A stretch of DNA of 64,000 nt, taken from the NCBI GenBank assembly GCA_029215795.1, contig JARDYH010000007.1, positions 103,617,263-103,681,262 of the forward strand. Reading direction: 5' to 3'. The stretch comes from Anniella stebbinsi (Eukaryota > Chordata > Lepidosauria > Squamata > Anniellidae). Under the pieces are notes generated by a model. That model had not been told where the DNA came from. It saw only the letters and a list, made by a program, of their open reading frames with translations, and ran no database searches. Made by a program: the position numbers and the translations under genes. Positions 18,601 through 63,195 of the stretch are shown piece after piece (position 1 is the stretch's first letter; each line of letters opens with the position of its first letter).

Positions 18601-19181
18601 AGGCTGGTGGCTCCGCTTTTGGTGGGGCTGTGAATCCATTCCTGAGCCAGAACCAGCTGCAACGTTTTGAGAATGAAGTTTGGCACCTTGGACGGCTCCT
18701 TTGGCGTTCTGGCTGGTTCTGACTGAAACCCAGAATGGATTCTCAGCCCCACCGAATCCAGAACTACTGGCTAGGGGTGTGCACGGACCCCCCGGATCGG
18801 ATCGGGACCCGGATCGGGACCTCCAATTTTGTCACGGATCGGTTCGGACAAAATCGGAGCCCCCCCCGGACCAGATCAAGTAAGATCCCGATCCAAAAAT
18901 CGGAAAGGTAAGGGCCCACCTCCTCCCCCCCCCCGCTGTCCACTTTCATCGGCAGGCGCCTGCTGGCGCCCGCCAATGGAAGCGGCGGTGGGCGCCAGTG
19001 GGCGCCCGCCGATCCGCCGATCCGCTGAACCGGTTCGGAGCCTTTTCGGACCAGTTCGGATTGGATCGGCCGATCCAGCTGTCAGATCGGAAATCGGATA
19101 ATTTATCCGATGTCCCACTGGACCGGACTCGGATCGTGGATTGGGTCCGATCCAGTGCACATCCCTACTACTGGCCTCCAC
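18594..19181. mobile_element. Palindromic MITE (gtggaggctggtgg ends), split by a second MITE
   Basis: The left part 18594-18771 begins cagtggaggctggtgg and the right part resumes after 19167 as ctggcctccacc. Internal stretches ggtggggctgtgaatcc and ggattctcagccccacc are inverted copies of each other. The element is about 190 bp without the insertion. Its own target duplication was not determined. Confidence 0.65.
18772..19167. mobile_element. 396-bp hAT-like MITE, GATCCG-rich, with 8-bp target duplication
   Basis: The ends are taggggtgtgcac and gtgcacatccct plus a, inverted repeats with one mismatch. The flanks are ctactggc at 18764-18771 and ctactggc at 19168-19175, a perfect 8-bp target-site duplication, which is the hallmark of hAT transposition. 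The interior is made of gatccg/cggatc motifs. There is no coding capacity. Confidence 0.9.
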
Positions 19182-49311: not shown

Positions 49312-50003
49312 GTACAGATGAAGGAAGGAGACATCCCATCCCAAAGGCAGCACTCTCGCCTGCAACGCGCCTGGAAATGGCCAGAAACAGAAGACCCCCA
49401 TGCAGCAGGGACACAGAACGCATTCTGGAGCATGCCTCTGCACACAACGCAAACCTCTTGCAGATGCATGAGCAGATGCATGCGCAGATGTTGCAGAGAA
49501 ATGACCAGATGTTGGACTACTTGAAAACAGAAGATGCAAGGGACCAAAGAAATCAAGATGCCCTTCTCAGAATTCTAGAAAGACAATGTGTCACGATGGA
49601 GAAGATGGTGACGGTGGTGCAACAGGAAGAACCGGGAACATCAACCCATACAGCCAACCCATCATCTGCTAGCCATGGAAAACGCCAGCCAATAAAAAGA
49701 CGGTTGGCTATTGACAGTATGGAGGGGACCAGCAGTAAGCCAAATGACTTAGGTGGGAACTCAGGAGAGGGTGAGGGGAGAAAATGCCTGGCTAAGAAGA
49801 AACGTAAAGTCAGGGTGCAACAACCCCAGTCTGCCCAGTTGCAAAATCCCCAGAATGACATTTTAACCAAAGACTTGGACGAATCACTGCTCCCGTGCTC
49901 CCATACAGTACCCCCACAGCGCTCATCATCACCACTTCAAGGTGAGCCAAGCATAAAGCGCACGGCACGGGAGGTAAAAAAACCCTTAAAGTTCTCCCCT
50001 TAG
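49312..50003 (+). CDS. Myb/SANT-like gene, terminal exon (coiled coil, basic tail)
   Basis: The acceptor is tttcccttcag. The exon takes up the split codon in the right phase and runs 230 codons to TAG. Near the start, residues with RDTERILEHASAHNANLLQM and Gln/Met/Leu-rich heptads (MHEQMHAQMLQRNDQMLDYL) predict a coiled coil, as in the C-terminal oligomerisation part of Harbinger Myb-like proteins. A Lys/Arg cluster (KKKRKVRV) is a likely nuclear-localisation signal. An ATTAAA signal lies at about 50368. No frame defect is visible. Confidence 0.75.
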
Positions 50004-50375
50004 AATACATGTTTTATGTTATTGTTAATAATTTGCTGTTAATTATGGTTTTTTTTGCTGTTATTTATGTAATTGTTATTTGCTGTTATTTATGTAATTG
50101 TTATGTTATTTGCTGTTAATTATGGTATTTTTTGCTGTTATTTATGTAATTGTTATGTTATTTGCTGTTAATTATGGTATTTTTTGCTGTTATTTATGTA
50201 ATTGTTATGTTATTTGCTGTTAATTATGGTATTTTTTGCTGTTATTTATGTAATTGTTATGTTATTTGCTGTTAATTATGGTATTTTTTGCTGTTATTTA
50301 TGTAATTGTTATGTTATTTGCTGTTAATTATGGGTTTTTTTGCTGTTATTTATGTTGTATTTAACCATTAAAATA
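50004..50375 (+). repeat. 52-bp tandem repeat in the 3' untranslated region
   Basis: A unit beginning tgctgttaattatggtattt repeats with an exact 52-bp period (for example 50111, 50163, 50215), about six copies. It consists almost entirely of ttatg/gctgtt words. Confidence 0.9.
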
Positions 50376-50570
50376 TAGTTTTCATATCTCACTGTGTGGT
50401 TGGGACTGTGCTTCCTATCTATTATTAAAACAGTTAGGCATCCCTCCTTAATACTGCACCAACCTGAAAATGCTAAGGAAAACCAAAACAATGTTTTAGT
50501 AACAAAAATAAAGATTTAGTTTTTTAAACAAATATTATTTTCAACTATTTACAATATTATTTTCAACTAT

Positions 50571-50677
50571 TTACAATTTATTGAGGATCTTGTCCAACTT
50601 TTCCTCCATGGAGGACATGCGATTCTGCATGCCTCCAACGGCTGCCTCAAGCCTCTCCAGCCGCTCCTGAGTGGGAA
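50571..50677 (-). pseudogene. Second Myb-like gene, coiled-coil terminal exon
   Basis: On the minus strand, CATGCAG is followed by an exon encoding ERLEAAVGGMQNRMSSMEEK and ending KILNKL-stop, a short leucine-heptad coiled coil. Its phase fits the exon at 51054-51160. The gene runs towards, and ends about 570 bp from, the plus-strand Myb-like gene, so the two are convergent. Confidence 0.6.
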
Positions 50678-50861
50678 CTGCATGGGATGGTAAGAATTTT
50701 TTTTTGTTTAAAATCATATAATATAACCAACAGAAAAACATTTCAAGATGTACTACTCAATGACATTGGCTATTCAATGCGATTCAATTTACAGGAATGT
50801 GAATATAGTTTTTCTTTTTTTAATTAAAAATTTAAACCATTAGTCCTGTACTGTACAATAG

Positions 50862-51008
50862 GGTGACCACATAAAATCCAGGTCGGTTAAACTGTTGTGA
50901 TGAAGAGGGGATTTCACCAGGAACTAATTGCATACAAATGACACTGGCTGAAATTCCCTTTTCTCTACAACTGTTACAGATACAGGAGCCCTGACCTGGA
51001 TTTTATAT
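50862..51008 (+). mobile_element. Palindromic MITE fragment in the intron
   Basis: This is an internally shortened copy of the MITE seen at 30232 and 35202 ('ggtgaccacataaaatccag', 'gatgaagaggggatttcacc', 'gaaattcccttttct'). Confidence 0.75.
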
Positions 51009-51053
51009 GCTCAATGTACTCTACATTATACAAAGCAATGGAACTTCTATTAC

Positions 51054-51160
51054 CTGCTGGAGACACAGCAGCAGGTGAGACAGGTGGGGGTGCATCCTCC
51101 TCTTCCTCCTCTTCCTACACCTCCTCCTCCACCTCCTCCGCAGACGACGACGGCGATGGA
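51054..51160 (-). pseudogene. Second Myb-like gene, acidic exon with a stop
   Basis: The acceptor is GATACTCAG and the donor GTAATAG. The natural frame is Ser- then Glu-rich (PSPSSSAEEVEEEV), followed by a TAG stop and then EEEEEDAPPPVSPAAVSPA in the same frame. A single nonsense codon therefore breaks it. Confidence 0.6.
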
Positions 51161-51362
51161 CTGAGTATCCCTTCAAAATTGGAAAAAAAATGTTATTTTA
51201 AGTTTCTATCATGGTGTTCCCCGCCTCGATCCGTTGGGAGAGTCTGTTAATTAATAAATAAATAAATACATATATCATTACAATTATTAATATTAATAAT
51301 ATTATTAAAGTACGCTGGGCAAAAATAGTATTCCTAATTAATCTGGCTTGCATTTAACTTAC

Positions 51363-51466
51363 GTGCCCTTCTGCGGAGGGTCATCCGAGGAGGAGGAGGA
51401 GAAGGAGGAGGAGAAGTCCCCCCAACCTCCTCCACTTCCGGAGAAGGCGCTGCCTCCTCCGCCATC
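51363..51466 (-). pseudogene. Second Myb-like gene, Pro/Glu-rich exon
   Basis: The acceptor is CACAAAACAG and the donor GTAAGT. The best-looking frame (EEAAPSPEVEEVGGTSPP) does not join in phase with the exons on either side, so an indel or an unseen exon is likely. Confidence 0.45.
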
Positions 51467-51533
51467 CTGTTTTGTGCTAAGAAAAAGAGGGAAAAAGGGA
51501 AATAACATTAAAATGTGGAAGGGGTCCCTGAAG

Positions 51534-51845
51534 GGCATCTAGTCCAACCCCAAGATGAATGCAGGAATCCACCTTAAAGCCTCATTGTGTCAGGAGTCAT
51601 AGTTTTTGGGGCATTCCCCCCCCCCCAACCTGCACATCCACCAGAGAATACACAATGAGCAGTGGGCAGAATCACCAGCACACAGGGCTCCTGAAGGGCA
51701 TCTAGTCCCACCCCACCCAAGATGTATGCTGGAATCCACCTTAAAGCCTCATTGTGTCAGGGGTCATAGTTTTTGGGGCATTCCCCCCCCCCCCCCCCCA
51801 ACCTGCACATCCACCAGAGAATACACAATGAGCAGTGGGCAGAAT
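51534..51845 (+). repeat. Tandem duplication, about 164-bp unit
   Basis: 'gaagggcatctagtcc' to 'gagcagtgggcagaat' occurs twice, each with a long C-run (C9-C18) in the middle. Confidence 0.85.
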
Positions 51846-51863
51846 GCTAATGCACTCACTCAC

Positions 51864-52197
51864 CTGCAGTCAGCCTCTCCTCCGGGGTTGGTCTCCCTGC
51901 CTTCCGCCACAGCTCCCGGAATTGACCGAAGTAGGGTGGACGCTGACGGAAGGGGGGATGCTCCCCATGGGCAGCAATGGCCCGAAAGAAGCCCGCCTTA
52001 ATGTACTTAAACTTTGTCCGACACTGCAGGGCAGTGCGGACAAAGTTGTTCGTTTGCAGAGCAGCAGCCGCCCTCCTAAACAGCCTCATAGTCGGGAGGC
52101 TGCTGCTCCGCACAATCCTTCCCACGAGGGAGGATTGGAGGAGGAAGGCCAACAATATGCGGACCTCCGCATCGCTCCAATACCTCCCTCTCGGCAT
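51864..52197 (-). pseudogene. Second Myb/SANT-like DNA-binding gene, first exon
   Basis: The ATG at 52197 opens MPRGRYWSDAEVRILLAFL..., followed by RRAAAALQTNNFVRTALQCR, TKFKYIK and a PPYFGQFRELWRKAG block. This is a compact trihelix Myb/SANT-like domain with the usual W-x-x-x-E...LL, Q-C-(R)-x-K-(F/I)-K and Y/F...L-W spacing. The exon is intact to a GTGAGT donor in phase 1. The downstream exons carry a stop and incompatible phases, so the gene as a whole is called broken. It may be the Myb-like partner of the transposase fragment at 53411. Confidence 0.65.
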
Positions 52198-53410
52198 CTT
52201 GAAGGATTGTGAGGAAGTGTAGGCCTCACTTCCGGTTTGCGATGTTTCCGCGGACCGGTTTAGCGGTTGCACGCATGTGCGCGGAACCGTCAAACCACCA
52301 TTCCCGAACCGCGCGTAAGTGATTAAACACAGTCGCGTTTGTTCGGAGCAGTGGGAAAGTTACCAGATGTGTTTTGGGTGTCCTGAATGTACCTTTGGGT
52401 GTCCTGAACTGAAAACCTGAGAATGTTATTGACTAGATGGTACTATGTTATTCTCAAAAAAACAACCCTGTGAGGTAGGCATGGGTTGTGGTCCTGTTAC
52501 TTGCCCTTCTGCAATGTTCACTGTACTGCATATGTGTGTTGGGTTACCCGAAGTCTTATTGTCTAGGAATACTACTATCAACATTGTTTGAAAATTGTAG
52601 GAACATATTTTATTTAGGATTAGCATTTTTAAAATAAGCATTTTTAATATGGCAACAACAATTTCAGCATAGAACATAAAATGAACAGCAAACAGCATTT
52701 ACAACAGCATTTAATTTGACATTGAAAGAAACATAGTTGAAAGTCACATTATTATGAACATCTCAAAACAATATCTAATTACTAACAGCAATGTAAAAGA
52801 AAAATCTGCATAGAACATAAAATGAACAGCATTTGAAACAGCATTGCATTACACATTGAAATACACATACATAATGAACATCTCAAAACAGCAATGTAAA
52901 AGAAAAATCAACATAGAAAATAAAATTCACATATTCTAAAGGGATTGTCTATCAGTAGTCTCATTTCCTAATGCAGCTTCTTCTTGATGAAAAAAGAATA
53001 AACAGTCAGTGCTGCCTGGAGCGGGACTTGGCTTTTGCTTGAAGAATGAATGATCCAGAAAAAGGAAGAGGTTGCCTTCTGGTCTGGTCACATCACAGAG
53101 GTTCCACACGACACCGTCTTTTGATCCCCTGCAGTTCTCTCTATGCCATGTTCTAAGGGAAATTTAGAGATGGATTGTTTTAGCATAGGATGTAATAACA
53201 ATATCCCACCCTCTACACATTCATTCATTCATTCATTCTCAGGCCATGAAGCCTTTATGCGGAAACTTTCCTTATTTGTTTATGCTTCTATCCAGGTCTT
53301 CACATGATTCCTTCCTGTGACTTGCTGAAATAGAGTAAATAGAGTAAAGTTAGGGACAACATGGCTTACACAAGTTTGGCACAGGGTTTTGGCACTGAAC
53401 ACTCACCTCC
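52198..53410. other. Upstream/intergenic region with a tandem duplication and (ATTC)n
   Basis: A unit of roughly 120-140 bp containing 'gaacataaaatgaacagca' and 'atgaacatctcaaaaca' is duplicated at about 52668-52915. A short (ATTC)n lies at 53218-53238. No further exon was recognised. Confidence 0.6.
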
Positions 53411-53923
53411 CTAGGGGTTCTGCCCACGCAGAGACCAAAGCATGCCTCTTAAGGCATCTCTGACCTTTTCCCCAGCAGCCTTTTCTTGAATTTCTTCATG
53501 CGCCATTGGCAGCGGGGCACCCAGGGTTGCCAGTTCAATTTGCCTTGCTTCTGGGAGATCCAATTCAACATCATGTCCTTGAGTTTCACAAATGTTGTGC
53601 AGAATGACACAGGCAGATATCACTGAAATGATGTTTTCTTCAGCGAGTTCTATCCTGGATGACAGGCATCTCCACCGTGCTTTTAACCTTCCAAAGGCAC
53701 ATTCAACAACATTCCTCGCCCGTGACAGACAGTGGTTGAAATGTTGCTTTGGCTGGTCCAGGGCTCCACCGTAAGGTTTCATCAGCCACTTCCGAATGGG
53801 GTAAGCGGAATCAGCCACCACCAGTGGAGGAATCTGCACGTCATTAACAGTAATGGTAGGGTTCCCTGGGATGAAGACACCAGCTTCCATGGCCTCAAAG
53901 AGTGCAGAGTTCCTGAAGACATG
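53411..53923 (-). pseudogene. Harbinger DDE transposase, C-terminal half
   Basis: This is a HARBI1-like (DDE_Tnp_4) transposase piece. In order it has HVFRNSALFEAMEAG, the second catalytic Asp in VADSAYPIRKWLMKPY, the catalytic Glu in RNVVECAFGRLKARWR, and a tail with ISACVILHNICE. In the family these residues, with an upstream Asp, coordinate metal for cut-and-paste transposition. The upstream half with the first Asp is missing. At 53924 the sequence switches directly into the 82-bp minisatellite. No stop occurs within the remaining part, which ends at 53411. Confidence 0.85.
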
Positions 53924-54203
53924 GGCAACCCCCTCTTGTGGCCGGAACCGGAAGTGACATAGGTAAACAAATGCCATGTGGCCGGAACCGGAAGTGACGT
54001 AGATATGCAACCCCCTCTTGTGGCCGTAACCGGAAGTGACATAGGTAAACAAATGCCATGTGGCCGGAACCAGAAGTGACGTAGGTATGCAACCCCCTCT
54101 TGTGTCCGTAACTGGAAGTGACATAGGTAAACAAATGCCATGTGGCCGGAAGCGGTAGTGCCGAATGTAAACAAAACCCAGGTGGCCGGAAACGGTTCAA
54201 CAG
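53924..54203 (+). repeat. 82-bp minisatellite (two 41-bp halves)
   Basis: 'aaccccctcttgtggccg' recurs at 53927, 54009 and 54091. Within each unit 'gtggccggaaccggaagtga' occurs twice. Confidence 0.88.
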
Positions 54204-54373
54204 TAACACGGGCCCCTCTGGGTGACACGTCCTGTAGGAACATGTCCAGGCATGTCTCCCCACAGCCCCTCAGCGGTTGGCTAAGGAATAACACGGGGGC
54301 CGTCTGGGTGACACGTCTGCAGGAACATGCCCAGGCATGTCTCCCCACAGCCCCTCAGCGGTTGGCTAAGGAA
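54204..54373 (+). repeat. Duplicated terminal segment, 85-bp unit, two copies
   Basis: 'taacacggg' to 'ggttggctaaggaa' occurs at 54204-54288 and again at 54289-54373 with several substitutions. The right arm has only the inner copy. Confidence 0.88.
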
Positions 54374-54501
54374 TAGCTCGTGACCTGCCCCCCAGCCAAT
54401 AGGAAGAGGTTTCAGAGCCCCCAACACTAGGACAGGGCGTGCTGTGCTTTTCAGACAGCCGGGGCAAGCCGTCGGTCACAGTTGCTGATTTTTGGAAGAA
54501 C

Positions 54502-55188
54502 ATGGAATCCCCCAGCACCCCGATGAGGCCTACGGAATTTTCTACCCCGATGGCGCCAGGCAGGCCTAAACCCAGAAAGAAGGGTACGATTCGGTCTTTA
54601 TCATATCCACCAGATCCTCAGAACAGTTCTGCTGCAGCCGAGAGCAAACCATTATCTGTGGGGCCTTGTGGTTTTTCTTTTCCACTGACCCCCTTGAAGC
54701 TCCAACCTAGAAAGCTGAATACGGGACAGTCTTCTCTTCCTGAAACCACATCAGGGTTCGATTGGAGAATGGATTGTACTGACCAGTGGGCTGATACAGT
54801 ATCAGGGTTCGATTGGAGAATGGATTATACCGACCAGTGGGCTGATAAAGTATCAGGGTTCGATTGGAGAATGGATTGTACCGACCAGTGGGCTGATAAA
54901 GTATCAGGGGTCGATTGGAGAATGGATTGTACCGATCAATGGCCTGATACGGTGTGTGGTTTGAACAAGATGCCGCTAAAGAAAGAGCTTACGGATACTT
55001 CCGACAGCCTTGGGGAGTTCACCAGCATCGCTGAGGAGGCGGATGGGGGTGTACTTAGGAAACTGGCCAGCCTGTCTATAGAGAAAATGGGGCTTGGAGA
55101 TCCTGACACAGCCGGTTCTACTTACCAACCAACCCTGGAGACTCTGGAAGAGGAGATGGAGGTTATGACCGAGAAAGGAGGAGCACCA
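54502..55188 (+). CDS. Unknown gene in the left arm, exon 1 (four 17-residue repeats)
   Basis: I do not recognise this protein. The frame is open from before 54439. The first ATG is at 54502 (MESPSTPMRP...), with a possible splice acceptor (tgcttttcag) at about 54453, so a 5' exon may exist. The N-terminal third is rich in Pro/Ser with basic clusters (GRPKPRKKG). The middle has four copies of a 17-residue unit of the form SGFDWRMDCTDQWADKV. The C-terminal part is acidic. The exon ends in phase 0 before GTAAGT. In vertebrate adintoviruses, small arm-proximal genes without cellular homologues are common. Function is unknown. Confidence 0.7.
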
Positions 55189-55275
55189 GTAAGTATTTTT
55201 TATATTAAATTTGTTGTCACTAGTATGTTGAGGGTGATTGTAGATTACTAAAAATCTTGTCTTTGTTTTACATAG

Positions 55276-55383
55276 GAGCGTTGTACGTGTGTTGGTCTTG
55301 AGAACTTGAACATTGACACTTCACGGACTGTCAAGATTACCTGCATTTCGTGTATTTCTCCAGGCATGGACATTGAAAAATAG
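55276..55383 (+). CDS. Unknown gene in the left arm, exon 2 (Cys-rich end)
   Basis: After an 87-bp intron (GTAAGT ... TTTTACATAG) this 108-nt exon continues in phase 0 to TAG. It encodes ERCTCVGLENLN... and a CISCIS motif, giving C-x-C and C-x-x-C pairs that could bind zinc. AATAAA signals follow at 55385 and 55414. The splice call rests on consensus sites and frame only. Confidence 0.65.
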   Translation, partial: ERCTCVGLENLNIDTSRTVKITCISCISPGMDIEK

Positions 55384-55467
55384 TAATAAAAAGTTTCTGT
55401 TGTTATTTGCACCAATAAAAACATTTTGTTGTAAACTTCCGCCTCCATTCTTGCGTTAACCTACAAT

Positions 55468-55914
55468 ATGGCAGATCTTGAAGAGATCCTAAGGAATGTT
55501 TATTATACACCCGGGAAGGCCGGGAGCTTTGGAGGTGTGGACCCTCTATTTCAGGAGGCCAAAAAGCAGAATGAAAAGGTGACTAAAAAGCAGGTTATCT
55601 CATGGCTTTCAGACCAGGATGCTTACACGCTGCATAGGCCGGTCAGACTCCATTTTAAAAGAAACAAAACAATTGTGTCTGGAACGGATGCCCAGTGGCA
55701 AGCTGACTTAGTGGATATGCAACAGTTTTCTAAATACAACAAGGGCTACAAGTACATTTTAACAGTGATAGACATTTTGTCTAAATATGCTTGGGCTGTT
55801 GCTTTAAAAAATAAGACAGGCAAAGAAGTGTCCAAGGCCTTTAATGCCCTTTTTAAACAAGATTCCAGAAAGCCGGGCAAACTGCAAACGGACAGAGGGA
55901 AAGCCACATATTAA
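55468..55914 (+). pseudogene. Polinton retroviral-type integrase, truncated (left arm)
   Basis: The ATG at 55468 starts MADLEEILRNVYYTPGKAGS. An N-terminal zone with K/R-rich strands is followed by the integrase core: ADLVDM (first catalytic Asp), YILTVIDILSKYAWAV, then LQTDRGK (second Asp). Polinton integrases have these motifs plus a downstream Glu and often a chromodomain. Here the sequence changes after LQTDRGK at about 55900 into an inverted piece of the central basic gene and stops at 55914. The catalytic Glu is lost, so the product should be inactive. Confidence 0.85.
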
Positions 55915-55979
55915 AACAGCTACTCGGAATATTGCTAAAGATGTGGTCAGCCATGTGTCTCAAGCGGTTTTGAATAATG
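55901..55979 (+). repeat. Nested 79-bp fold-back, left copy
   Basis: It is the exact reverse complement of 56176-56254 (coordinates sum to 112155). It lies immediately inside the end of the left integrase fragment. Confidence 0.9.
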
Positions 55980-55994
55980 TCTCCCCGACCTATC

Positions 55995-56437
55995 GATGAG
56001 CGCCTCTTCTTTCTAACGCTCTTCCTTTTCTGAGGTTTCTTCCCCCTCACAGCTTTCCTTTTAAGGGGCCGGGGCGGGCCGATTAGCTGTGCTTGAGATG
56101 CTTTTCTTTTCAACCCCTTTCTTCTTCTTTTTATATAGATTAGTCCTGAACCATCTTGGCGTTGTGTAGGGGAGGCATTATTCAAAACCGCTTGAGACAC
56201 ATGGCTGACCACATCTTTAGCAATATTCCGAGTAGCTGTTTTAATATGTGGCTTAATGATCTCTAGCCCTCTTCTCAAAAGAGGAACAGCCTTTCGGAAA
56301 AGACTCCTGAATATCCCCCCAATCCCTGCCCCATACATAACAGGGGCTCCATGGTACCCCGGAAGGGCATTTCCCGCCTGAGCCCTGTAATAATTTCTGT
56401 AAAGGGAGGGGTCTCCGTACGTTTTCAGGATCGCCAT
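55995..56437 (-). pseudogene. Basic virion-type protein remnant (central region)
   Basis: The ATG at 56437 lies 2 nt after the stop of the penton-like gene, so the two are adjacent in one unit. The frame shows a Gly-rich, membrane-active-looking N-terminal region (GAGIGGIFRSLFRKAVPLLR), then a very basic part with RKGLKRK, GPPRPLKRKAVRGKKPQKRK and RKKRRSS. Small basic proteins downstream of the penton are known in Polintons/adintoviruses and compared with adenovirus core/pVI proteins. That comparison is inference. The natural C-terminus is lost where the sequence folds back at about 55990. The frame itself runs on to 55853. Confidence 0.6.
56176..56254 (-). repeat. Nested 79-bp fold-back, right (in-gene) copy
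   Basis: This copy lies within the basic protein gene and encodes IKTATRNIAKDVVSHV. The inverted duplicate sits at 55901-55979. Confidence 0.9.
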
Positions 56438-56439
56438 TT

Positions 56440-57025
56440 TCAAAGCTGCAGGGTTCTCCGGGGCCGAAAGTGTAGCTTCACAAACACCTTCCCAAAACGG
56501 AATGGCACGTTTTTGTTCTGGTCTGTCTTTATCTCAATAGTGATTGTGTCGATATGGTGTTTGCTCACCGGGATGTAGTGTGGCTTGTCGTAAACAATGT
56601 TGACACGTTCGTTGTTCTGGCCGCGTACAGGTACGCAACGCAGTAAAGGTACATAATAGTCTCCCACTATCTGGTGATTCACAATGTCTGTGTAAATGTA
56701 TAAACTGTTAAAACCTCCAGTAATGTCAGCAGGAAAAGGCAATATTTCAACATCCTGATCAGGAAACAGGCCTAATATGTGGGCCAGTTCTGCACTTGCT
56801 CAAAAGGTATTTTTTTCTGTTGCTTGCAGGCTGATTTTTCTAGACACAGCGTCATAGTGCAGGGTCACTTTTGGACCACCATGTATATGGCTGTTCATGC
56901 TTTCCACCAGCTCAGGAATGCTGGCATAATAGCCGCGGCGCAGAAAAAAACAATACCTACGTACCCCGTTAGAAATTTCAAATCGTGCATCAGTAGTTAG
57001 AGTGTCCCAGCTGTGGGGGTATTGA
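56440..57025 (-). pseudogene. Penton-like minor capsid protein of Polinton type, C-terminal part
   Basis: It is similar to the Polinton minor capsid proteins annotated as F54H12.2-like. Visible landmarks are YPHSWDTLTTDARFEI, GYYASIPELVESMN, NSLYIYTDIV, PHYIPVSKHHIDTITIEI and PFRFGKVFVKLHFRP at the end. In the family this single jelly-roll protein forms the pentameric vertices. The N-terminal part is cut off at the palindrome edge (57026), and one in-frame TGA (56800-56802) divides the remainder. Both sides of the stop are in the same frame. It ends just before the ATG of the basic protein gene. Confidence 0.85.
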
Positions 57026-57026
57026 G

Positions 57027-57436
57027 CCCGGCTTTCTGGAATCTTGTTTAAAAAGGGCATTAAAGGCCTTGGACACTTCTTTGCCTGTCTTATTTTTTAA
57101 AGCAACAGCCCAAGCATATTTAGACAAAATGTCTATCACTGTTAAAATGTACTTGTAGCCCTTGTTGTATTTAGAAAACTGTTGCATATCCACTAAGTCA
57201 GCTTGCCACTGGGCATCCGTTCCAGACACAATTGTTTTGTTTCTTTTAAAATGGAGTCTGACCGGCCTATGCAGCGTGTAAGGATCCTGGTCTGAAAGCC
57301 ATGAGATAACCTGCTTTTTAGTCACCTTTTCATTCTGCTTTTTGGCCTCCTGAAATAGAGGGTCCACACCTCCAAAGCTCCCGGCCTTCCCGGGTGTATA
57401 ATAAACATTCCTTAGGATCTCTTCAAGATCTGCCAT
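57027..57436 (-). pseudogene. Polinton integrase, truncated (right arm)
   Basis: It begins at the ATG at 57436 and is identical to the left-arm copy except DPYT instead of DAYT near residue 51. It is cut at the arm's inner edge, before the LQTDRGK motif, so it keeps only the first catalytic Asp (ADLVDM). The frame runs on into penton sequence out of frame and ends at 56990. Confidence 0.85.
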
Positions 57437-57520
57437 ATTGTAGGTTAACGCAAGAATGGAGGCGGAAGTTTACAACAAAATGTTTTTATTGGTGCAAATA
57501 ACAACAGAAACTTTTTATTA

Positions 57521-57628
57521 CTATTTTTCAATGTCCATGCCTGGAGAAATACACGAAATGCAGGTAATCTTGACAGTCCGTGAAGTGTCAATGTTCAAGT
57601 TCTCAAGACCAACACACGTACAACGCTC
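57521..57628 (-). CDS. Unknown gene in the right arm, exon 2
   Basis: Mirror copy of 55276-55383 with the same acceptor, Cys pairs and stop. No difference was seen. Confidence 0.65.
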   Translation of the reverse strand, partial: ERCTCVGLENLNIDTSRTVKITCISCISPGMDIEK

Positions 57629-57715
57629 CTATGTAAAACAAAGACAAGATTTTTAGTAATCTACAATCACCCTCAACATACTAGTGACAACAAATTTAAT
57701 ATAAAAAATACTTAC

Positions 57716-58402
57716 TGGTGCTCCTCCTTTCTCGGTCATAACCTCCATCTCCTCTTCCAGAGTCTCCAGGGTTGGTTGGTAAGTAGAACCGGCTGTGTCA
57801 GGATCTCCAAGCCCCATTTTCTCTATAGACAGGCTGGCCAGTTTCCTAAGTACACCCCCATCCGCCTCCTCAGCGATGCTGGTGAACTCCCCAAGGCTGT
57901 CGGAAGTATCCGTAAGCTCTTTCTTTAGCGGCATCTTGTTCAAACCACACACCGTATCAGGCCATTGATCGGTACAATCCATTCTCCAATCGACCCCTGA
58001 TACTTTATCAGCCCACTGGTCGGTACAATCCATTCTCCAATCGAACCCTGATACTTTATCAGCCCACTGGTCGGTATAATCCATTCTCCAATCGAACCCT
58101 GATACTGTATCAGCCCACTGGTCAGTACAATCCATTCTCCAATCGAACCCTGATGTGGTTTCAGGAAGAGAAGACTGTCCCGTATTCAGCTTTCTAGGTT
58201 GGAGCTTTAAGGGGGTCAGTGGAAAAGAAAAACCACAAGGCCCCACAGATAATGGTTTGCTCTCGGCTGCAGCAGAACTGTTCTGAGGATCTGGTGGATA
58301 TGATAAAGACCGAATCGTACCCTTCTTTCTGGGTTTAGGCCTGCCTGGCGCCATCGGGGTAGAAAATTCCGTAGGCCTCATCGGGGTGCTGGGGGATTCC
58401 AT
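57716..58402 (-). CDS. Unknown gene in the right arm, exon 1
   Basis: Mirror copy of 54502-55188, translating identically, including the four 17-residue repeats. Both copies therefore remain intact, and the two are transcribed towards the centre of the palindrome. Confidence 0.7.
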
Positions 58403-58639
58403 GTTCTTCCAAAAATCAGCAACTGTGACCGACGGCTTGCCCCGGCTGTCTGAAAAGCACAGCACGCCCTGTCCTAGTGTTGGGGGCTCTGAAACCTCTT
58501 CCTATTGGCTGGGGGGCAGGTCACGAGCTATTCCTTAGCCAACCGCTGAGGGGCTGTGGGGAGACATGCCTGGGCATGTTCCGGCAGACGTGTCACCCAG
58601 ACGGCCCCCGTGTTATAGTAGGGCCTATAACTACTGCAG

Positions 58640-60945
58640 GGCTTCTGTAACTTTCACCCACGTCTCGCATTTTGGGATTTCCGGAATCGGAGAATGTGCC
58701 CGAATCAAGGGACCCAGTAAACGCAGACGAGCGTGTCGGAAACAAGTGAAATCGCTGGAAAGGGGGCAAATGCCTCAAGCGAGGGTAGAACGGGACTTTT
58801 GCGGGTCGTATGCAGGGCTTCTGTAACTTTCACCCACGTCTCGCATTTTGGGATTTCCGGAATCGGAGAATGTGCCCGAATCAAGGGACCCAGTAAACGC
58901 AGACGAGCGTGTCGGAAACAAGTGAAATGGCTGGAAAGGGGGCAAATGCCTCAAGCGAGGGTAGAACGGGACTTTTGCGGGTCGTATGCAGGGCTTCTGT
59001 AACTTTCACCCACGTCTCGCATTTTGGGATTTCCGGAATCGGAGATTCTGCCCGAATCAAGGGACCCAGTAAACGCAGACGAGCGTGTCGGAAACAAGTG
59101 AAATCACTGGAAAGGGGGCAAATGCCTCAAGCGAGGGTAGAACGGGACTTTTGCGGGTCGTATGCAGGGCTTCTGTAACTTTCACCCACGTCTCGCATTT
59201 TGGGATTTCCGGAATCGGAGAATGTGCCCGAATCAAGGGACCCAGTAAACGCAGACGAGCGTGTCGGAAACAAGTGAAATCGCTGGAAAGGGGGCAAATG
59301 CCTCAAGCGAGGGTAGAACGGGACATTTGCGGGTCGTATGCAGGGCTTCTGTAACTTTCACCCACGTCTCGCATTTTGGGATTTCCGGAATCGGAGAATG
59401 TGCCCGAATCAAGGGACCCAGTAAACGCAGACGAGCGTGTCGGAAACAAGTGAAATCGCTGAAAAGGGGGCAAATGCCTCAAGCGAGGGTAGAACGGGAC
59501 TTTTGCGGGTCGTATGCAGGGCTTCTGAACTTTCACCCACGTCTCGCATTTTGGGATTTCCGGAATCGGAGAATGTGCCCGAATCAAGGGACCCAGTAAA
59601 CGCACACGAGCGTGTCGGAAACAAGTGAAATCGCTGGAAAGGGGGCAAATGCCTTAAGCGAGGGTAGATCGGGACTTTTGCGGGTCGTATGCAGGGCTTC
59701 TGTAACTTTCACCCACGTCTCGCATTTTGGGATTTCCGGAATCGGAGAATGTGCCCGAATCAAGGGACCCAGTAAACGCAGACGAGCTTGTCGGAAACAA
59801 GTGAAATCGCTGGAAAGGGGGCAAATGCCTCAAGCGAGGGTAGAACGGGACATTTGCGGGTCGTATGCAGGGCTTCTGTAACTTTCACCCACGTCTCGCA
59901 TTTTGGGATTTCCGGAATCGGAGAATGTGCCCGAATCAAGGGACCCAGTAAACGCAGACGAGCGTGTCGGAAACAAGTGAAATCGCTGGAAAGGGGGCAA
60001 ATGCCTCAAGCGAGGGTAGAACGGGACTTTTGCGGGTCGTATGCAGGGCTTCTGTAACTTTTACCCAAGTCTCGCATTTTGGGATTTCCGGAATCGGAGA
60101 ATGTGCCCGAATCAAGGGACCCAGTAAACGCACACGAGCGTGTCGGAAACAAGTGAAATCGCTGGAAAGGGGGCAAATGCCTCAAGCGAGGGTAGAACGG
60201 GACTTTTGCGGGTCGTATGCAGGGCTTCTGTAACTTCCACCCACGTCTCGCGTTTTGGGATTTCCGGAATCGGAGAATGTGCCCGAATCAAGGGACCCAG
60301 TAAACGCAGACGAGCGTGTCGGAAACAAGTGAAATCGCTGGAAAGGGGGCAAATGCCTCAAGCGAGGGTAGATCGGGACTTTTGCGGGTCGTATGCAGGG
60401 CTTCTGTAACTTTCACCCACGTCTCGCATTTTGGGATTTCCGGAATCGGAGAATGTGCCCGAAACAAGGGACCCAGTCAACGCACACGAGCGTGTCGGAA
60501 ACAAGTGAAATCGCTGGAAAGGGGGCAAATGCCTCAAGCGAGGGTAGAATGGGACTTTTGCGGGTCGTATGCAGGGCTTCTGTAACTTTCACCCACGTCT
60601 CGCATTTAGGGATTTCCGGAATCGGAGAATGTGCCCGAATCAAGGGACCCAGTAAACGCAGACGAGCGTGTCGGAAACAAGTGAAATCGCTGGAAAGGGG
60701 GCAAATGCCTCAAGCGAGGGTAGAACGGGACATTTGCGGGTCGTATGCAGGGCTTCTGTAACTTTCACCCACGTCTCGCATTTTGGGATTTCCGGAATCG
60801 GAGAATGTGCCCGAATCAAGGGACCCAGTAAACGCACACGAGCGTGTCGGAAACAAGTGAAATCGCTGGAAAGGGGGCAAATGCCTCAAGCGAGGGTAGA
60901 ACGGGACATTTGCGGGTCGTATGCAGGGCTTCTGTAACTTTCACC
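58640..60945 (+). repeat. 176-bp satellite, about 13 monomers
   Basis: The monomer contains 'cacgtctcgcattttgggat', 'gagaatgtgcccgaatcaag', 'gagcgtgtcggaaacaagtg' and 'gcgggtcgtatgcagggctt'. The same frame restarts every 176 bp (58733, 58909, 59085, 59261, 59437; one unit is 175 bp). Monomers differ by only a few substitutions. The open frames in it are by-products. Confidence 0.97.
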
Positions 60946-61493
60946 TGTAGGGGAAAAATGCCCTAGAGCAAATCTCCTGTCAGGAGTGTGCAGAACTCAG
61001 AGACACAAACCAAGACTCACGTATTTATCAAAGCAGCTTTATTCATCAAAAGACAGGTTCAGCAGTTTAAAATATTTCTCTACAGCAAGGCCCATCGTTG
61101 CCATACCGAGAACAGCGGCCCGCTCCTACCGTGCGGGCTAAAACTTGGCATCCCTTCCCCACCAAGAACCAACTCTCCCTCTCAAGCCAGGGTTTTTGTC
61201 CCTTCCCCTGGAATGTTCCCCCTCCCAGTCCGGCGCCAGAACTCTTCTCCTCTTCACACCTCCTACGCCAGCCTTGAAGTTTACAGCTGGAGATAGCCCC
61301 GGCCTTCCTGCTCTGGAGTCCTTGAATCCCTTATCTCTCCCCAGATGGCAACCCCAGGGCCGTTTGTCTCTCTAATGTCTCTACAGCTATATGAAACCAT
61401 CTTACCAATCCTATTTCCTACCAACGCTACTTTTCCCCCCAAAGTCCTCGTTCTCCTCCCCCAACCAGCACAGTCTATCTGATCCCCTTTACA
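60946..61493 (-). repeat. 3' LTR of the Gypsy element
   Basis: On the plus strand it runs tgtaggggaaaaatg to gatcccctttaca. An AATAAA signal in element orientation lies near 61030. The purine tract AAGGGGGGAGG abuts it at 61494. Confidence 0.93.
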
Positions 61494-62360
61494 CCTCCCC
61501 CCTTAAGATGGAACTGAGGGGGTTTCACCTCCTCTTTCTTGGGTTCTGGTTTCTTTCTCTCTCTCACTCTCTCTACTCTCTGCTCTCTCTCAGTTCCATC
61601 TCCACTTTCTCTCCGTTCTACTAACTCTCTCTCGGGTTCTGGTTCATCCAAGTACCGGCGGGACAACCCATCTGCCACCACGTTCTCTTTTCCTTTAATG
61701 TGGGTAACTGTAAAGTCATAGTCCTGTAAGGCTAGACTCCACCGCAACAACTTTTGGTTGGTGTTCTTTACTCTAGCCAACCAACACAGCGGAGAATGGT
61801 CAGTCTGCAACGAGAAGGGGCGCCCCCACAAATACGGCCGCAATTTCTTAATGGTCCACACAATGGCCAGGCACTCCTTTTCGATGGTGGCCAGGGCTTT
61901 CTCCCGGGGTAGTAGTTTCTTACTGATGAAGGCAATGGGGTGCGACTGTCCCTTTTCATCTTCTTGTAGCAACACCCCCCCCAAACCTCTTTCAGAGGCA
62001 TCGGGCTGCAATATGAACGGTTTATCAAAATCTGGCGCCTGTAACACTGGGCGCCTCCGCAAGCAGCGCTTGAGGCTTTCAAACGCTTGTTGACACTGTG
62101 TCGTCTAGGGCACTCTAATGGGCTGTCGTTTCCGACAGAGATCCGTGAGGGGGGCCACCAGGGCACTAAAGTCAGGCACAAAACGTCGGTAGTACCCTGC
62201 TAATCCCAGGAATGACTGCACCTGTTTCTTAGTCTGTGGCGTTGGCCAGTTTTGAATAGACTCTACCTTCGCCGCCAGCGGTTTCACACTGCCCCCTCCT
62301 ACCCGATGTCCCAAATACGTCACTTCCCCCAACCCAAATTGACACTTGGTCGCGTTCCGC
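61494..62360 (-). pseudogene. Gypsy pol: RT thumb and RNase H
   Basis: From the junction at about 62360 the frame reads VTYLGHRVGGG, SFLGLAGYYRRFVPDFS, meets one TAG (62105-62107), then continues in the same frame with the RNase H domain: FILQPDASERGLGGVLLQ, ATIEKECLAIVWTIKKLRPY, FSLQTDHSPLCWL and GKENVVADGLSRR. The catalytic D-E-D positions of RNase H are present. The frame ends at 61475, just inside the LTR. The RT palm (YxDD) and integrase are missing. Confidence 0.85.
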
Positions 62361-62571
62361 TTCGGCTCTCGCCGGCCGACACCGCCACAGGGGCCTGCTT
62401 ACTTGCTGCTCTTTTCTTTAGCTCAGTCACCCCTCCTGAGACGTCGCCCACCACCCATTCCTCGATGGTCGCCTGGCCGGGCCCCATGGCCCCTTCATCC
62501 CCCCCGACAACCGGCAGCAGCTGCTCCACTGTCTCGATACCTTGCAACTTTTTTATTTCCTTCCCGGGCAT
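62361..62571 (-). pseudogene. Gypsy gag-like N-terminal fragment
   Basis: The ATG at 62571 starts MPGKEIKKLQGIETVEQLLP about 75 nt after the 5' LTR. About 70 codons remain before the sequence jumps into RT. The assignment to gag rests on position only. Confidence 0.5.
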
Positions 62572-62647
62572 TGCTGTCGCCGCTTCTCACCCTGCAACTT
62601 ACTGTTTGTTTTCTCTGCTTCTGCACAATATCCCACCGCTGCCAAAA

Positions 62648-63195
62648 TGTAGGGGAAAAATGCCCTACAGCAAATCTCCTGTCAGGAGTGTGCAGAACTC
62701 AGAGACACAAACCAAGACTCACGTATTTATCAAAGCAGCTTTATTCATCAAAAGACAGGTTCAGCAGTTTAAAATATTTCTCTACAGCAAGGCCCATCGT
62801 TGCCATACCGAGAACAGCGGCCCGCTCCTACCGTGCGGGCTAAAACTTGGCATCCCTTCCCCACCAAGAACCAACTCTCCCTCTCAAGCCAGGGTTTTTG
62901 TCCCTTCCCCTGGAATGTTCCCCCTCCCAGTCCGGCGCCAGAACTCTTCTCCTCTTCACACCTCCTACGCCAGCCTTGAAGTTTACAGCTGGAGATAGCC
63001 CCGGCCTTCCTGCTCTGGAGTCCTTGAATCCCTTATCTCTCCCCAGATGGCAACCCCAGGGCCGTTTGTCTCTCTAAGGTCTCTACAGCTATATGAAACC
63101 ATCTTACCAATCCTATTTCCTACCAACGCTACTTTTCCCCCCAAAGTCCTCGTTCTCCTCCCCCAACCAGCACAGTCTATCTGATCCCCTTTACA
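62648..63195 (-). repeat. 5' LTR of the Gypsy element
   Basis: Nearly identical to 60946-61493. In element orientation it is followed by ttTTGGCAGCGGTGGGATAT, the TGG-initial primer site in the style of vertebrate Gypsy elements. Confidence 0.93.

Follow-up and report, generated by a model that had tools for sequence, protein, structure and literature searches.

How does an almost perfect palindrome made of virus-like mobile DNA arise in a vertebrate genome, and was it formed before or after the element was integrated? This question is raised by a locus of the lizard Anniella stebbinsi, lying in a 64-kb stretch of contig JARDYH010000007.1 (C7:103617263-103681262, in an assembly of 1.89 Gb and 91 contigs); we refer to this whole analysed stretch as the window. 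The original prediction, made from the letters of the window, saw in it a palindrome of Polinton (Maverick) sequence, proposed a deletion derivative that spreads as fold-back DNA, and attributed the likeness of its arms to gene conversion or hairpin replication. We conclude, with a probability of about 70%, that the locus is a fold-back Maverick provirus that was duplicated and has recombined between its arms, a rearranged member of a recurring class of fold-back elements. Two integrase-side Maverick ends would then face each other around fragments of the late genes mcp (minor capsid) and PW.

Results

A palindrome of Maverick sequence

The predicted geometry was reproduced by a repeat search and a base-by-base comparison: two arms of 1,591 nt, at 54288-55878 (plus strand) and 57026-58616 (minus strand), align without gaps around a centre of 1,147 nt. 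Three mismatches separate the arms (54321/58583, 54696/58208 and 55621/57283), where two had been counted, and at all three the right arm deviates alone, the left arm agreeing with both arms of a sister locus on C5 and with 20 other copies of the family, both described below. The next-longest inverted repeat found elsewhere in the window measures only 258 nt at 91% identity, which puts the palindrome far beyond chance; it is real. A smaller fold-back is nested inside the centre, where an 89-nt sense piece of PW (55901-55989, plus strand) recurs inverted at 56166-56254 with 2 mismatches. The element itself is longer than the predicted 54288-58616, as Maverick terminal sequence reaches 53925 on the left and 58635 on the right. 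A model in which the outer ends of the arms are the element termini and 53925-54203 is host DNA was ruled out by other Maverick copies.

With the right-arm integrase as query, the best 40 of 162 candidates comprised both window arms and 38 further places at 99% identity, and we fetched about 10 kb around 20 of these 38. Each of the 20 carries at its integrase-side end the terminus AGTAGTTATAGGCCCTACT, the same sequence that stands, reading inward, at 58617-58635 (minus strand), in the 19 bases beyond the right arm; this terminus and the presence of an rve integrase piece confirm that the locus consists of Polinton sequence. Integrase and mcp blocks were both found in 19 of the 20 copies, all of which keep between them about 830 bp that are missing in the window; the remaining copy, L015, is itself a rearranged short element. 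In the ordinary copy L009, a 368-aa integrase frame with rve (1.8e-14) and chromodomain matches in Pfam is followed by frames of 242, 157, 436 and 189 aa, the 189-aa frame showing a match to adenovirus protease below the threshold. The terminal inverted repeat (TIR) of the family, its shared terminal stretch, extends inward from the terminus for about 855 bp.

Genome-wide, the terminus plus 11 fixed bases occurs exactly 131 times (67 + 64) and 144 times at no more than one mismatch, a census that misses elements with more diverged termini. The exact termini form 57 convergent pairs, of which 44 span 13-19 kb, 2 span 10-13 kb, 2 exceed 19 kb and 9 fall below 10 kb; 16 exact termini are unpaired, that of C5 included. 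The search for a full-length relative suggested with the prediction is thereby answered by the 44 pairs 13-19 kb apart in the same genome, which are of full-length size. Four copies (L010, L015, L023 and L024) carry an extra terminal stretch and a common 925-bp segment ahead of the usual integrase-side end and may be nested or end-to-end Mavericks; the inner terminus of L015 is complete.

Fold-back relatives with target-site duplications

Nine short Mavericks were compared, eight read whole and the ninth as two 2-kb pieces: four are one-end palindromes, one is mixed, one is a plain deletion and three lack a long inverted repeat. The integrase side forms both ends of L034 (5,454 bp; arms of 2,195 bp with one mismatch; target-site duplication (TSD) GATACA) and of L035 (5,203 bp; TSD AAAGTT), and the side opposite the integrase, shared with L038, forms both ends of L036 (7,474 bp; TSD ATCATT) and L037 (8,392 bp; TSD TTTGTC). 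L015 (5.3 kb; TSD TGTGTG) is a mixed fold-back, ending in an inverted 294-nt piece of the accessory gene 1 and an inverted terminus. One end of the ninth element comes from the opposite side and the other from the integrase side, gene 1 and integrase sequence being confined to one end; this element is a plain internal deletion. Inverted repeats in L032, L033 and L039 are no more than about 250 bp long. Pfam gave no family for two frames of L038, at the opposite Maverick end, whose label as the polymerase end is taken from the published gene order alone.

Matching 6-bp flanks enclose seven of the eight short elements read whole. As the four palindromes L034-L037 and the mixed L015 all carry matching TSDs, these palindromes were inserted as units, which argues that self-complementary genomes formed before integration; at the level of the family, the predicted fold-back derivatives therefore exist. 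The exception is L039 (C8:12386641-12389569), a 2.9-kb Maverick without a direct TSD, whose host flanks are identical but inverted over the roughly 92 bp read; it may have inserted in the middle of a host palindrome or been subject to a local inverted duplication.

Beyond the TIR, the arms of the fold-backs differ at 0/1340 sites in L034, 2/3139 in L037, 3/2482 in L036 and 0/228 in L035, compared with 9/1340, 19/2965, 22/2483 and 2/228 differences, respectively, to one ordinary copy. Overlaps at the switch points measure 3 nt in L035 and about 12 nt in L036, with none in L037, and a chain of switches in L034 has overlaps of 2, 5, no and 7 nt. The arms in the window reach 2,103 bp from the terminus, against a TIR of about 855 bp, and thus represent an inverted duplication beyond the TIR, as in L034-L037. 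By its arrangement, the window locus resembles the L034-L037 class in plan, a likeness that by itself falls short of showing membership.

Junctions and the sister locus on C5

Four junctions define the internal structure of the element (coordinates within the element count from the Maverick terminus as 1). J0 (58616..58617) joins 564 to 19 by a deletion of about 544 bp of the right-end terminal array, J1 (57026) joins mcp 2934 to integrase 2103 by a deletion of about 830 bp with a 1-nt overlap, and J3 (55901..55903) joins integrase 2128 to PW 3706 with a 3-nt overlap, the arms thus extending 2,103-2,128 bp from the terminus. At J2 (55973..55986), PW runs in sense to 3791 and then in antisense from 3986, across an imperfect microhomology with the core ATG[T/C]CTCCCC. 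Here, a 3' end near the end of PW may have folded back onto an upstream complement and copied some 80-90 nt. The integrase breakpoints of J1 (55878), J3 (55903) and L034 (element position 2189) lie 2103, 2128 and 2189 from the terminus, within 86 bp of each other, and a shared, preferred switch region is possible.

The combination of junctions recurs at one other locus, at 2.44 Mb on C5. J0 is present at exactly two places in the genome, the window and C5; J3 has one place besides the window, again C5 (best 40 of 129 candidates scored); and J2 is the same in these two loci, the only ones compared for it. J1 was found in the window only (best 40 of 185 candidates), and none of the 38 further integrase matches runs across it. 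A second copy with the same junctions, proposed as a check of the prediction, thus exists for J0, J2 and J3 and not for J1. The host flanks are common as well. On the left, the host flank (49951..53926), which contains a truncated Harbinger transposase gene, matches C5:2448410-2452400 in inverted orientation at 98.65% over 4,001 bp, with 18 substitutions in 3,539 compared sites, and the satellite-side flank also matches. Since window and C5 share J0, J2, J3 and both flanks, they represent a single segment that was duplicated, and each is situated close to the end of its contig (2.44 of 191.7 Mb on C5 and 103.67 of 105.1 Mb on C7). The window palindrome has spread by segmental duplication, to C5 or from it, and not by transposition. 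This contradicts the proposal of a spreading element, as J0 occurs only once more, at the segmental duplicate, and J1 nowhere else among the candidates scored.

The C5 element runs from the satellite-side terminus, flanked by CCCTGC, to a second terminus, beyond which TGAGTG and Harbinger transposase sequence follow, and it lacks the J1 deletion. Its J3 side adjoins the satellite-side arm and that of the window the Harbinger-side arm, so that the orientation of the centre with respect to the flanks is reversed, exactly the outcome of a crossover between inverted arms. The arms have recombined, leaving the centre in opposite orientations at the two loci.

The C5 palindrome also contains an extra insert of 1,806 bp (L029:2961-4766) flanked by 8-bp repeats, whose ends resemble positions 18772-19167 of the window and which perhaps belongs to a small transposon family. 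The Harbinger stretch beside the C5 element (L030:813-1011) is represented by at least 40 copies of 100% identity (best 40 of 233 candidates), suggesting a very recent Harbinger burst.

Probable copying of mutations between arms

Between the C5 arms there are 10/1,565 site differences and an unequal count of 51-bp repeats, between the window arms 3/1,591 differences and an equal count; position 55722, for instance, is alike in both window arms and differs between the C5 arms. A 29-mer containing 55612A occurs exactly twice in 1.89 Gb, once in each C5 arm, and among the fetched copies compared 55007T is likewise restricted to the two C5 arms. One allele, 54688A, is common to all four arms of the two loci and absent from the 20 other copies. 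Three alleles (54394A, 54748A and 55498G) are common to both window arms and were found neither at C5 nor in the 20 other copies; as proof of conversion they were dropped, since each of them proved to recur elsewhere once genome-wide patterns and further copies were considered. The case for conversion accordingly rests on 55612A and on the arm types, which differ at C5 and not in the window. Mutations have likely been copied from arm to arm, most clearly at C5, in line with the predicted gene conversion.

The competing view, that the arms are alike merely because the palindrome is young, would draw on the lack of a strong contrast between arm and flank differences (3/1591 vs 18/3539) and on the presence in other copies of the alleles shared by the window arms. 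We consider it improbable, as 55612A is confined, genome-wide, to the two C5 arms and is missing from the sister palindrome in the window, and youth does not account for arm types that are unlike at C5 and alike in the window.

Origin of the palindrome

In the reading that we favour, self-complementary defective Maverick genomes form before integration and are inserted by the normal reaction, with both helper supply and their replication presumed. The palindrome would have been created when DNA copying switched strands at short homology, together with deletions. It lies between a 176-bp satellite and Harbinger near a contig end and was duplicated with its flanks to the end of another contig, or from there. 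After the duplication, recombination between the arms inverted the centre, and mutations were probably copied from arm to arm. That the window palindrome in particular had such a viral origin and later exchanged one flank is more probable than not. It is favoured because its plan, which runs from a truncated integrase arm and a short late-gene piece to an inverted late gene, integrase, gene 1 and the end, resembles that of L034. Several observations weigh against this account. The 6-bp flanks at C5 (CCCTGC and TGAGTG) are unlike and the window element has lost its left terminus, so that the matching TSD seen in L034-L037 and L015 is found at neither locus. Among the relatives, only one ordinary copy served as the reference for each fold-back, and whole arms, variable terminal arrays included, are only about 97.6-99% identical in L035 and 97.7% in L036. 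With regard to arm exchange, 54748A recurs in one other Maverick, 54394A in L039, and 55498G in two Mavericks that match its pattern exactly and, as alignment shows, in L032, so that import from another copy is possible; and the divergence of the window arms is only weakly below that of the flank (3/1591 vs 18/3539; Fisher 0.15, Poisson 0.04).

The unlike flanks at C5 are what would be expected if the palindrome had a chromosomal origin, in which two ordinary Mavericks, one inserted in satellite and the other in Harbinger, oppositely oriented and with their integrase ends pointing outward, were fused by a deletion with fold-back repair over some 80-90 nt. The TGAGTG side indeed reads as Harbinger transposase, there is microhomology at J2 and J3, and J0 is found on the satellite side only. 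This possibility deserves serious, if lesser, credence, and it would make the other fold-back Mavericks a separate phenomenon; against it, the plan of the window element is closely like that of L034, which has a matching TSD, and 54688A is in all four arms and absent from the 20 other copies, a sharing that later conversion could also yield. An assembly artefact, either a fold-back read chimera or collapsed repeats, is very improbable. Inverted chimeras are a known artefact of assembly, and the short junctions resemble template switches, but the second locus has J0, J2 and J3 with the opposite centre, the extra 1.8-kb insert with its 8-bp flanking repeats, and other arm alleles, and the Maverick terminus and TSDs delimit the four fold-back relatives and the mixed one as well. 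Least credible of all is that the arms are merely unusually long TIRs. Vertebrate Maverick TIRs reach up to 1,447 bp (PMC8097293), but the shared terminal stretch of this family stops about 855 bp from the terminus and the arms run to 2,103-2,128 bp; in addition, the single deletion element sampled at both ends has gene 1 and integrase at one end only.

Content and surroundings of the element

The Maverick sequence begins on the left with a terminal region (53925..54287, plus strand) of an 82-bp tandem array and one 85-bp unit, recognized by comparison with other copies and a tandem-repeat search. The terminus and the outermost 200 bp or so are gone from this end, which is joined to Harbinger; at the C5 sister the terminus is kept there. 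In the adjoining flank, the frame 53414-54196 (minus strand) matches DDE_Tnp_4 (PF13359, 4.7e-19).

Gene 1 is a putative two-exon gene with an intron, predicted from open frames and GT-AG signals: putative exon 1 (54502..55188, plus strand) contains four 17-aa repeats and is mirrored in the right arm, and putative exon 2 follows at 55276..55383 (plus strand). The four repeats, of the type DWRMDCTDQWAD, lie at 54750-54949 and 57955-58154, and the number of the 51-bp units differs among Maverick copies. A protein search with exon 1 found no homologue at E<=1e-3, and an 'oncoid'-like identity is a guess. The N-terminal part of the integrase (55468..55903, plus strand) ends at J3. Its rve match (PF00665) reaches 8.2e-09 in the left arm and 1.4e-05, under the Pfam cut-off, in the right arm, in agreement with the half integrase predicted for the arms. 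This piece has 267 homologues in the protein collection, the best at 70% identity; a PDB sequence search gave no match.

In the centre, a PW-like gene (55991..56437, minus strand) and the C-terminal part of mcp (56440..57026, minus strand, positioned by alignment to an ordinary copy) are named by the gene order integrase - mcp - PW given for vertebrate Mavericks in PMC8097293. Neither gene matched a Pfam family above cut-off. For the PW-like protein, 17 homologues were found at E<=1e-3, the best at 75% identity and none of them carrying a name. An in-frame stop in mcp (56800-56802) is found in the window copy only, being absent from C5 and from the 18 of the 20 fetched copies that are readable there. 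Gene 1, the partial integrase and the pieces of mcp and PW are the only element genes found in the window, without polymerase, ATPase, protease or major capsid genes, as expected of the deletion derivative that had been proposed. With a partial rve integrase, an (AGT)2//(ACT)2 terminus on the right, a lost left terminus and no 6-bp TSD (CCCTGC vs TGAGTG at the C5 sister), the locus is filed as Maverick-derived sequence and not as a complete Maverick.

On the right, the terminus is joined on its CCCTGC side to a 176-bp satellite array (58636..60945, identified by TRF), which is present at C5 too. Within the satellite, 60946-63195 is an interruption containing a retroelement-like frame (61478-62104, minus strand), which may be Gypsy-like. 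No relative was found in a viral contig collection or, with the PW query only, among GTDB genome contigs, and Rfam gave no match at gathering scores.

Discussion

Foldback/Galileo transposons have long inverted arms with internal tandem repeats, recombine between copies and encode a P-element-like transposase. The window element is alike in its long inverted arms, tandem repeats and recombination, and differs in its transposase family and in having Maverick ends; no P-element-like transposase was among the Pfam matches of the 7 window frames scanned. Vertebrate Mavericks, as described in PMC8097293, have an (AGT)2 terminus, a TIR, the order integrase - mcp - PW and a protein-primed polymerase. 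The family studied here shares the terminus, the TIR, the gene order, an rve and chromodomain integrase and, in seven of the eight short relatives read whole, a 6-bp TSD, whereas the window element is made of end sequence and late-gene fragments and takes both of its ends from the integrase side.

A close parallel from a virus is the snapback (SBG) class of defective adeno-associated virus (AAV) genomes, in which, according to PMC8235507, a left or right half is self-complementary, symmetrically or asymmetrically, beside deletion genomes. Mavericks likewise fold on either side, the integrase side in L034 and L035 and the opposite side in L036 and L037, with a non-palindromic centre and a plain deletion alongside; in contrast to the AAV genomes, sequenced from particles, the Maverick copies are integrated with TSDs, belong to a group with a protein-primed polymerase and are known from genome sequence alone. 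Symmetric genomes of adenovirus Ad12 SYREC and palindromic derivatives of the yeast plasmid pGKL offer a further comparison, for which a literature search gave nothing on point: these linear DNAs, likewise protein-primed, also carry an inverted duplicate of one end, but are not integrated germline elements. For the behaviour of the arms, human Y palindrome P6 is instructive, its arms being kept alike by gene conversion with rare inversions of the centre (PMC3723533). The window locus shows the same inversion and probably the same arm conversion, in arms of only 1.6 kb, with viral content and near contig ends.

We found no description of palindromic Mavericks in the literature searched, most subscription journals lying outside its reach. 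The present elements give good support to the view that Mavericks, like AAV, routinely produce self-complementary defective genomes out of either end and that these become integrated in the germline. It is further conceivable, though we regard this addition as speculative and the two together as rather unlikely, that read-through of the inverted arms of germline fold-back Mavericks yields long hairpin RNA against integrase and accessory genes, a hypothetical heritable brake on the intact Mavericks of the genome that carries them. The window and C5 form a pair in which a small palindrome has undergone arm exchange and a flip of its centre, behaviour best known from sex chromosomes. Virions of vertebrate Mavericks had not been observed as of PMC8097293, and their virus-like replication has so far been argued mainly from genes. 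Fold-backs with matching TSDs record in physical form how free Maverick DNA was copied aberrantly before it integrated, and would make the replication mechanism readable from genomes, including strand switching, regeneration of ends and help in trans.

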